Assembly: GCA_016235865.1 (NCBI GenBank)
Contig: JACRIK010000026.1
Coordinates: forward strand, 124,001-188,000
Source: Planctomycetota bacterium
GTDB taxonomy: Bacteria > Planctomycetota > MHYJ01 > JACQXL01
DNA length: 64,000 bases
Direction of reading: 5' to 3'
Positions 57,195 through 64,000 of this stretch are shown in pieces. The notes below the pieces were generated by a model that saw only the letters and a program-made list of their open reading frames with translations, did not search any database and was not told the origin of the DNA. The position numbers and the translations under genes are program-made. The number at the start of each line of letters is the position of its first letter. The stretch's first letter is position 1.

Positions 57195-57287
57195 GAATCT
57201 GTTTATCTAATGACATGATATTGGAACTAAGCGAAGTGTGAGCGCGAGCGTCCGCGAAGCGGAGTGAGTTCCCCGTGTTCTCTGTGC

Positions 57288-57318
57288 CGGAGTTTACACT
57301 GAGCAGAGCGAATGTGTG
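57288..57318. repeat. Dispersed 31-bp repeat, copy 2, at the glcF start
   Basis: Same element as 31706-31736 with two differing bases. It runs up to the first possible glcF start codons, so the region that would hold a ribosome-binding site is made of repeat DNA. Confidence 0.7.
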
Positions 57319-61758: not shown

Positions 61759-62520
61759 ATGAAGAAGATTTTATTATTGGCGGGTTTGTTATTATTGGCT
61801 GGTTGTGCTGTCAACGCCTCCGGTCCTCAGGATGCCAAGGCAATCGTACTTAATGCCCACCGGATGCTGGATGAAGCAAAGGGATACAGGTTTAATATGG
61901 ACGTGACTTTAGACGATACGCCGGCGACGATTAATATCAAGGGCGCCATCCAGAACCCTGATTTCTGCTACTTCAAAGTCACGCTGTCTACTCCTGAAAA
62001 TGCCGAAGCAGAGGTAATGGAAGTGTACCGGCAGGGCAACAAGCTGGCTCTCAATCACGCCCGGGATGGAGAACCTAAAGAATGGCAACCGGATGATTAT
62101 GATGATCCGGAATATAGGAGTGTGGCCACAGATATGCTTTGGGAGGTATATAAAACCGTTGATGTGGATAAATTACTCAGGAACGCAAAATCAGCCGGGA
62201 CCATGACAGTCAACGGGATTGAATGCTATAAGATAGAGGCGCTGTTTGACGCGGAAGACCTGAAAGACTTTAATGCAATTGATGAAGGTCGGATGTGTCC
62301 GCCCGGGACGGGCAAGGCCGTAAAGGCCGGATATCGATTCTGGGTGGCAAAAGGCAGCGGCGAACTCTGCAAAACACAACGCACCATTGAATACCCGGCG
62401 TCAGATAAGGCAATGACATTAGATATTACAATGATGCTGTCAGACCATCACAAGGATATCAAGTTGGAAATACCGGCCGAAGTGCAGGCATTGTTAAAAG
62501 ATAATCCGGAAACAAAATAG
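61759..62520 (+). CDS. LolA/LppX-like lipoprotein
   Basis: The 253-residue protein has a lipobox LLAGC (Cys16), followed by a beta-rich body. AKGYRFNMDVTLDDTPATINIKGAIQ and a later NGIECYKIEALF segment resemble outer-membrane lipoprotein-sorting or LppX-type antiparallel folds. GGGGAGGGGAAG lies just before the ATG at 61759; an in-frame GTG two codons upstream is not needed. It follows the toroid gene directly and is probably co-transcribed. Confidence 0.7.
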   Translation: MKKILLLAGLLLLAGCAVNASGPQDAKAIVLNAHRMLDEAKGYRFNMDVTLDDTPATINIKGAIQNPDFCYFKVTLSTPENAEAEVMEVYRQGNKLALNHARDGEPKEWQPDDYDDPEYRSVATDMLWEVYKTVDVDKLLRNAKSAGTMTVNGIECYKIEALFDAEDLKDFNAIDEGRMCPPGTGKAVKAGYRFWVAKGSGELCKTQRTIEYPASDKAMTLDITMMLSDHHKDIKLEIPAEVQALLKDNPETK

Positions 62521-62590
62521 TTCTGGGATGGGCGTTCCGTGTCTCAGTGCCTCTGTGGTTGAATTTCGGGCCGGGCGGGGGATTATAACT

Positions 62591-63013
62591 ATGAAGAAGG
62601 TTCTCTTATTGGCCTGTCTGTTATTGTTAATCGGGTGCGGAAAACAAATGACCCCGATTGAATTCGTCGAAAAGAACTTTGGGTTTCACATTCCTTCTGA
62701 TGTGTATATACGAAAAATAGAGAATAGCTTTATTAATGGTCTTCATGGCGATGGGCACTTTTATCTGGAGGCGCAACTTGAGAAAGACCGGATGCCGATG
62801 TTCCTTCAGGTAATATCGCAATCTGAGAAGTGGAAGGAACTGCCACTGCCAGAGGCCATGCAGAAGTATTACCGGGGCAGTTTCGTAAACAGGTATATGA
62901 AACTAAAAAACGGATATTACTATTTTCAGGATATTCCTGAAGAAGGCGGTTATAATATTGCCGTTTTGAATTTAGACACAAACGAATTGTTTGTCTATAA
63001 GCAGGTTAATTAG
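62591..63013 (+). CDS. Small lipoprotein
   Basis: The 140-residue protein has a lipoprotein signal, MKKVLLLACLLLLIGC (Cys16), and a short mixed alpha/beta body with no recognised motif. The N-terminus is very similar to that of the preceding lipoprotein, suggesting paralogous signals. The ATG at 62591 is preferred because it starts the signal peptide. It is probably the last gene of the run starting at 59918. Confidence 0.65.
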   Translation: MKKVLLLACLLLLIGCGKQMTPIEFVEKNFGFHIPSDVYIRKIENSFINGLHGDGHFYLEAQLEKDRMPMFLQVISQSEKWKELPLPEAMQKYYRGSFVNRYMKLKNGYYYFQDIPEEGGYNIAVLNLDTNELFVYKQVN

Positions 63014-63153
63014 AATTGCCAGGGCGGGGGCGGGCATTAAACTTATACCTTATAACTTGTAACTTATAATTGCCCCGAAGGGGTTTGGGCCGGAATCTGC
63101 GATAGGGGGTCCGGATTACTAGTATTGTGTCCCCGGATTAATCCCGTAGAGGC

Positions 63154-63342
63154 GCACTTATGAGTTGTAGTGACGCACTTACGACCTGTAATGACGCACT
63201 TACGACCTGTAGTGACGCACTTACGACCTGTAATGACGCACTTACGACCTGTAGTGACGCACTTATGAGTTGTAATGACGCACTTACGACTTGCAAGTGC
63301 GCACTTATGACTTGTAGTGACGCACTTATAACCTGTGCGCTG
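63154..63342. repeat. Tandem array, 9 units of 21 bp (array E)
   Basis: Nine units with consensus start GCACTTACGACCTGTARTGAC (20 of the 21 positions well conserved) run head to tail. AGTG-ACG-CACT dyads span each unit border. Since 21 is divisible by three, open frames of a Cys/Asp/Ala/Leu heptad pattern arise on both strands; no start site or composition supports a gene. Confidence 0.9.
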
Positions 63343-63551
63343 TAGTCCAGAACCTTTATTAACAGTAAATGAAGGCCCGCCGACGCCCTTTATATGGGCC
63401 AAGTGACACACACCTTCCCCTAAAAGCCGCTAAATATCTGACTTCAGAGATGCTGTTTTGCCAAATCAGTCCTTTATGCCACCAGTCCTGTCCTAAAACG
63501 CCGCACCTTTAGGGCTTATATGGGGGTAAATAGTGGTTCAATATGATTTGT

Positions 63552-63635
63552 ATGGCGTGTTTTCTGACTCAGTTGGCGTGCCAAATGACCTTGTTGGCGT
63601 GCCAAATAACCTTGTTGGCATGCCTAATGACCCGT
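63552..63635. repeat. Tandem array, 4 units of 21 bp (array G)
   Basis: Four units, consensus TTGGCGTGCCAAATGACC; units 2 and 3 carry the dyad TTGGC-GT-GCCAA. The first and last units are diverged. Confidence 0.8.
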
Positions 63636-63659
63636 ATTGAGCTCAAAACAAGCTGAAAC

Positions 63660-64000
63660 CTATTCATTCGGGATAATACAGAGGAATTTCATGGTGCCCG
63701 GGCCGGTATTCCGGAACCCGCACTGCGGGACCACGAGCAATCGTCCTGTGAACGATGCGGAGTGAACTGGTGGAGTTTGTTCGGCTCGACAAGGATTACA
63801 TAGCCGGCCTGGAATGGTTTCTTGGCGTCTTCGTAGGTCATCTCGCCCTGGCCGTCCAGGACGAATATCTCGTGCTCGCCCGGATGGGTATGGAGCGGGG
63901 TATGGCCGTCCTGGGCCACCTCAAACAGGCGCATGGCGAAGTTGGGCGCCTCCTTCTGTGAAATCAGCCAGCGCATGCTCACGCCGATTGCGCCTTCGAT
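63660..64000 (-). pseudogene. Cupin-domain gene broken by a 50-bp insertion; 5' end outside the window
   Basis: Minus-strand reading gives a cupin with IEGAIGVSMRWLISQ at the window edge, so the gene continues beyond 64000. HTHPGEHEIFVLDG carries the metal-binding His/Glu motif and NKLHQF leads into the last strand. The frame then runs into unrelated residues. The expected C-terminus, FRNTGPGTMKFLCIIPNE, is intact in another frame ending at 63660-63662. Removing 50 bp (63714-63763) restores a continuous cupin. The insertion is flanked by a repeated GAA. Confidence 0.8.
63714..63763. repeat. 50-bp palindromic insertion in the cupin gene
   Basis: The segment has imperfect inverted ends (CCGCA/TGCGG) and inner GGAC/GTCC complementarity, with a duplicated GAA target at 63714-63716 and 63764-63766. 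It shifts the frame by two and so inactivates the gene. Confidence 0.65.

Follow-up and report, generated by a model that had tools for sequence, protein, structure and literature searches.

What interrupts the cupin gene that closes the window (the whole stretch of 64,000 nucleotides analysed here), and does the interrupting segment belong to something larger? The answer proposed below is that the segment very probably represents a hairpin element, lineage-specific and non-autonomous, which is akin to the Rickettsia palindromic elements (RPEs) and to REPs, is present in at least 83 copies and enters at GAA.

The broken cupin gene

The minus-strand cupin reading frame extends past the window end to a full length of 118 amino acids (locus L001, reading MKCQASNEIPLRP...) and matches Cupin_2 (PF07883) with 45 bits (cut-off 27.2) and an E value of 9e-12. 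Its translation runs to ...VEPNKLHQF and is then followed by the residues TPHRSQDDCSWSRSAGSGIPARAP, which do not belong to the family, and a stop. Across the break (given as ccgGAACCCGCACTGCGGGACCACGAGCAATCGTCCTGTGAACGATGCGGAGTGAACtggtgg), the plus strand reads ccgGAACCCGC...GGAGTGAACtggtgg. When a single unit of 50 bp was excised in silico (63714-63763; taking 63717-63766 gives the same result), the cupin end became ...NKLHQFRNTGPGTMKFLCIIPNE-stop (also written ...LHQFRNTGPGTMKFLCIIPNE-stop), and the flank-joined protein aligned with TM1459 (5wsd) free of gaps to the last residue (E 5e-23). The same ending is found in the cupins of relatives, which close with ...DKLHRFRNTGKDTLKFLCLVPN and ...HQFRNTGGGTLRFLCLVPN. 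The first-pass annotation, which had described a good cupin up to LHQF whose expected end resumes in another frame after 50 bp, was thus borne out on both counts.

The frameshift removes the last 17 residues of the protein, and inactivation of the cupin by the insertion is the reading to which the sequence points. A truncated cupin that still functions, with the insertion as a neutral change of its C-terminus, would accord with upstream codons that are all intact, with no further frameshift or stop, and with the histidines matching the TM1459 metal site, which precede the insertion; by the ligand positions of TM1459, truncation would fall two residues past the position of the last metal-ligand histidine. 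The lost residues, however, include the final barrel strand, present in every aligned homologue, and retained function is on balance rather unlikely.

The inserted element comprises two consecutive hairpins, both stems of which are intact in the predicted fold (Table 1). It is bounded by direct GAA(C) repeats and does not have the inverted ends that had originally been supposed; the palindromy resides in the two internal hairpins. Elsewhere in the window, positions 63158-63345 hold a tandem array of units of about 21 bp (gacgcacttacgacctgtagt); ttggcgtgccaaat repeats come after it, at around 63567-63625.

Table 1. Positions in the window of the cupin gene, the inserted element and a second family copy.
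Feature	Position	Strand	Basis or remark
TM1459-like cupin gene in its present, frameshifted form	63689..64000	-	PF07883; flank-joined match to TM1459
Displaced 3' end of cupin gene, now out of frame (RNTGPGTMKFLCIIPNE-stop)	63663..63713	-	Read from sequence; aligned with homologues
Hairpin element from GAA to GAAC (50 bp inserted, net)	63714..63767	+	63717-63766 when the left GAA is taken as target
Stem A: CCCGC-ACT-GCGGG	63717..63729	+	Predicted fold; covariation among copies
Stem B: CAC..GC-A-ATCGT.../ACGAT-GC..GTG around conserved GAGC/GCGGA	63732..63764	+	Predicted fold; covariation
Second family copy, intergenic; the ORF that begins at 57316 lies downstream	57224..57269	+	R1/R2 model matches

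A dispersed hairpin family at GAA

A BLAST search of the cupin region against its own genome returned copies at 85, 76 and 79% identity (E 1.3e-10 for the first), and a long-form pattern with free positions matched 14 places in the genome compared with none for the reversed control. Because of the 85%-identical copy and the 14 matches against 0, the 50-bp segment is genuine and not a product of chance; it is a member of a dispersed family apparently confined to one lineage. The family census was built on models and patterns, and its counts depend on the thresholds. A sequence-only model matched 26 sites with E values of about 0.01 or below, and a structured model (CM) built from 12 copies gave at least 83 matches at E<=0.05 in the 2.67-Mb genome. 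The 24-bp form was found at 54 places within 3 mismatches (0 in the control), of which 42 copies lay within 2. The second copy in the window, absent from the input of both models, was recovered by R1 (E 1.8e-4 for the genome, 4e-6 for the window) and by R2 (E 0.03).

Outside this genome, the long-form pattern gave at most two matches per genome in relatives of the class, with similar numbers for the controls, while the CM search of 22 class relatives produced no match at E<=0.05, and a single weak match came from a more distant genome. Of 391 further genomes of the phylum, 389 held no 24-bp form within 2 mismatches, and the other two held one chance-like match each. The closest genomes compared were three incomplete ones from other genera of the same taxonomic family. 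In viral contigs, 28 long-form matches were rejected as chance-like, the conserved stems being missing, and the short-form pattern matched twice. A pattern scan of a wider contig collection, in which the own genome was possibly not included, returned no match, and a literature search for the element's peptide and DNA strings found no paper. The stem-A half of the element was also seen as a 27-bp tandem array of four copies (GAACTCGCTACTGCGAGACCACGAAGT) in contig C12 (12084-12188; L135/L136).

The copies have diverged from one another, and their stems covary. Two dinucleotides left free in the pattern, the NN of GACC-NN-GAGCA and that of GCGGA-NN-GAA, form the outer stem B; they were complementary in 14 of 14 pattern matches (13 Watson-Crick, one with G-T) and came in five combinations: AC/GT, GT/AC, GG/CC, GC/GC and AT/AT. 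Among 12 aligned shorter copies, 93% of cells were paired in the two-stem structure, with a covariation score of 0.359 against 0.157 for shuffles, none of 500 of which scored as high. Stem A likewise covaries (CTCGC/GCGAG, CACGC/GCGTG, CCCGC/GCGGG), the free stem-A pair of the 24-bp form being T-A in 22 and A-T in 27 of 52 cases, and the middle hairpin is exchanged between copies for unrelated stems (ATCGTCC/GGACGAT, CTGC/GCAG, TTTGAGCC/GGCTCAAA). Wobble-pair counts are compatible with folding of either strand. Net inserted lengths across the family are 24, 39, 42-45 and 50 or more bp, and the shorter forms, at 24 or 39 bp, amount to precisely 8 or 13 codons.

Strong covariation of this kind, along with the many intergenic copies, could also be accounted for if the hairpins worked at the RNA level, as regulators, processing sites or terminators, and were kept for that function without being mobile. 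Such an explanation is quite improbable in the face of copies placed N-terminally and internally within unrelated enzymes and nested in another repeat, of their absence from the orthologues of relatives, and of an Rfam search of window positions 62500-64000 that gave no match. Still less credence is given to an assembly or sequencing artefact at the cupin locus: the assembly is in 38 contigs and the cupin site is single-copy (one match in the own genome), but the insert is a complete family member with exact GAA bounds and both stems intact, its flanks carry no extra errors, and a clean element at a GAA site is not to be expected from an artefact.

The reconstructed empty sites in the cupin, RNase PH, PFOR beta and enolase genes all keep one GAA; at the RNase PH site, for instance, VNSELMLDL stands against VKGELLLDL in a relative. 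Within the genome itself, cacagatGAACacagat and tctgtGAAAtctgtg are present both as intact (empty) phrases and, at other places, in a filled state. Since the base after the right GAA varies among copies, the shared part is GAA and not GAAC. The duplicated GAA reported in the first-pass annotation is present at both ends, but it does not read as a random target-site duplication because it is a feature of most copies; constancy at both ends is compatible with a target motif or with duplication, and the constant GAA is probably either a target motif or an element end.

In-frame copies in conserved enzymes

At least 16 homology-supported genes carry an in-frame copy. Apart from that in the cupin gene, the copies within genes keep the reading frame, with lengths of 24 or 39 bp and, in a single case, 45 bp, and almost all of them have the sense orientation. 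Exactly 13 extra residues are present in both RNase PH and PFOR beta, absent in each case from 7 of 7 aligned relatives; ornithine carbamoyltransferase has 16 extra residues made up of two tandem 24-bp units, enolase about 35 with one unit among them, UvrA two units in a linker and UppS one unit. In PPDK, a 24-bp unit is nested after the GAA of a different repeat, itself within the gene. Ten further hosts have clear Pfam domains, nine with internal copies and one (PFOR alpha) with an N-terminal copy.

Further insertions were also noticed. Around the EHRSDHDSE unit of PPDK (L213), the second palindromic repeat (caccctgaa...cttggttcaggg...ctgaaacaagttcagcatgac) is in frame and hosts the nested unit. 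At residues 229-256 of enolase (L206), about 27 more residues (PEGKRSTPKAAHGKPKGTSTSGGTGAHS), absent from the aligned enolase, lie at the same point as the 24-bp unit. A sigma-54 regulator (L115) contains an in-frame insertion of about 45 residues, composed of several element units, between its TPR and AAA+ parts.

By our count, the copies in 16 homology-supported internal hosts are in the sense orientation, the antisense copies in genes being those of a 762-aa ORF (L197) and of the cupin. The orientation bias would fit selection: translated in sense, the copies give charged, hydrophilic peptides (EHRSDRDSE, NSAETGSTHRSGPN), and in antisense they give FAIAVSAEF-like ones. The cupin copy, being antisense, gene-breaking and of a length that is not a multiple of three, is atypical; it had been put forward as the clearest case of small palindromic elements inserting into genes, and while such elements do enter genes throughout the genome, the cupin is an unrepresentative example.

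Mobilisation, kinship and significance

In every copy, two mini-hairpins follow one another; the pair stands directly after GAA and ends in GAA. The element probably moves as single-stranded hairpin DNA, with a trans-acting enzyme that would recognise GAA and the hairpins; the case for mobility is built on filled and empty sites compared at the level of sequence, and the divergence of the copies is a point against it. Purifying selection would then spare chiefly those copies that lie in sense and in frame, whose translations are hydrophilic. Forms of 24 and 39 bp would survive in genes because they are whole numbers of codons, and the cupin copy would be a recent or tolerated antisense insertion of 50 bp.

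REPs are thought to be spread by RAYT (Y1 HUH) transposases. Two RAYT-like Y1_Tnp genes are present in the genome, and single-strand hairpins with a short fixed target would suit HUH chemistry. Both genes, however, are flanked by a different repeat with its own GGGGACAGACC ends, no GAA element was found beside either, and the elements have neither GTAG nor CGTC tags; spread of the family by RAYT enzymes is therefore doubtful, and these two genes were set aside as its mobiliser on account of their different ends. The ends at the two loci (L036 and L037) are of the GGGGACAGACCACATATTTT type, and partial copies of the 3' end of the Y1_Tnp gene lie in tandem behind the gene at L037.

Among known systems, RPEs are small hairpin repeats that, within a single lineage, have inserted into unrelated protein genes without breaking the frame (PMC10969869). 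The GAA element resembles them as a dispersed small palindromic repeat (83 CM matches, paired stems) and in its in-frame insertion into unrelated protein genes, the cupin copy being out of frame. RPEs were about 150 bp as first reported, whereas the GAA element is 24-60 bp, GAA-bounded and composed of two mini-hairpins, with no shared tag; the RPE4/6 type ends in CGTC (PMC3733652), unlike the GAA(C)...GAA ends seen here. GTAG/CGTC-tagged REPs, including the intragenic REPs of Opitutus terrae, are short palindromes in tens to hundreds of copies, some within genes including uvrA (PMC3733652). The GAA element shares these traits, UvrA among its hosts, but it has two direct hairpins where those REPs have a tagged single stem; neither GTAG nor CGTC was found at the ends of the aligned copies, and, unlike GTAG REPs, the element flanks neither Y1_Tnp locus. 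With MITEs (Correia, ERIC, NEMIS), it has in common that it is non-autonomous, dispersed and able to inactivate genes, yet it is far shorter and lacks terminal inverted repeats, its ends being direct GAA.

It is possible, although we lean slightly against it, that the family represents an undescribed class of minimal mobile element, in which 24-bp (eight-codon) units of two 10-nt mini-hairpins, inserted at GAA by a putative enzyme and able to stack head to tail, have lengthened many conserved enzymes of a single lineage by peptides that keep the frame. The best-known instance of hairpins entering conserved enzymes in frame is that of Rickettsia, for which such insertion has been proposed as a route for selfish DNA to make new protein sequence. 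The present family offers an independent case outside Rickettsia; its unit is much smaller and spans a whole number of codons. The insert-free orthologues of RNase PH and PFOR beta, together with the contrasting gene-breaking copy in the cupin, render both the movement of the element and the limits set on it by selection open to test.
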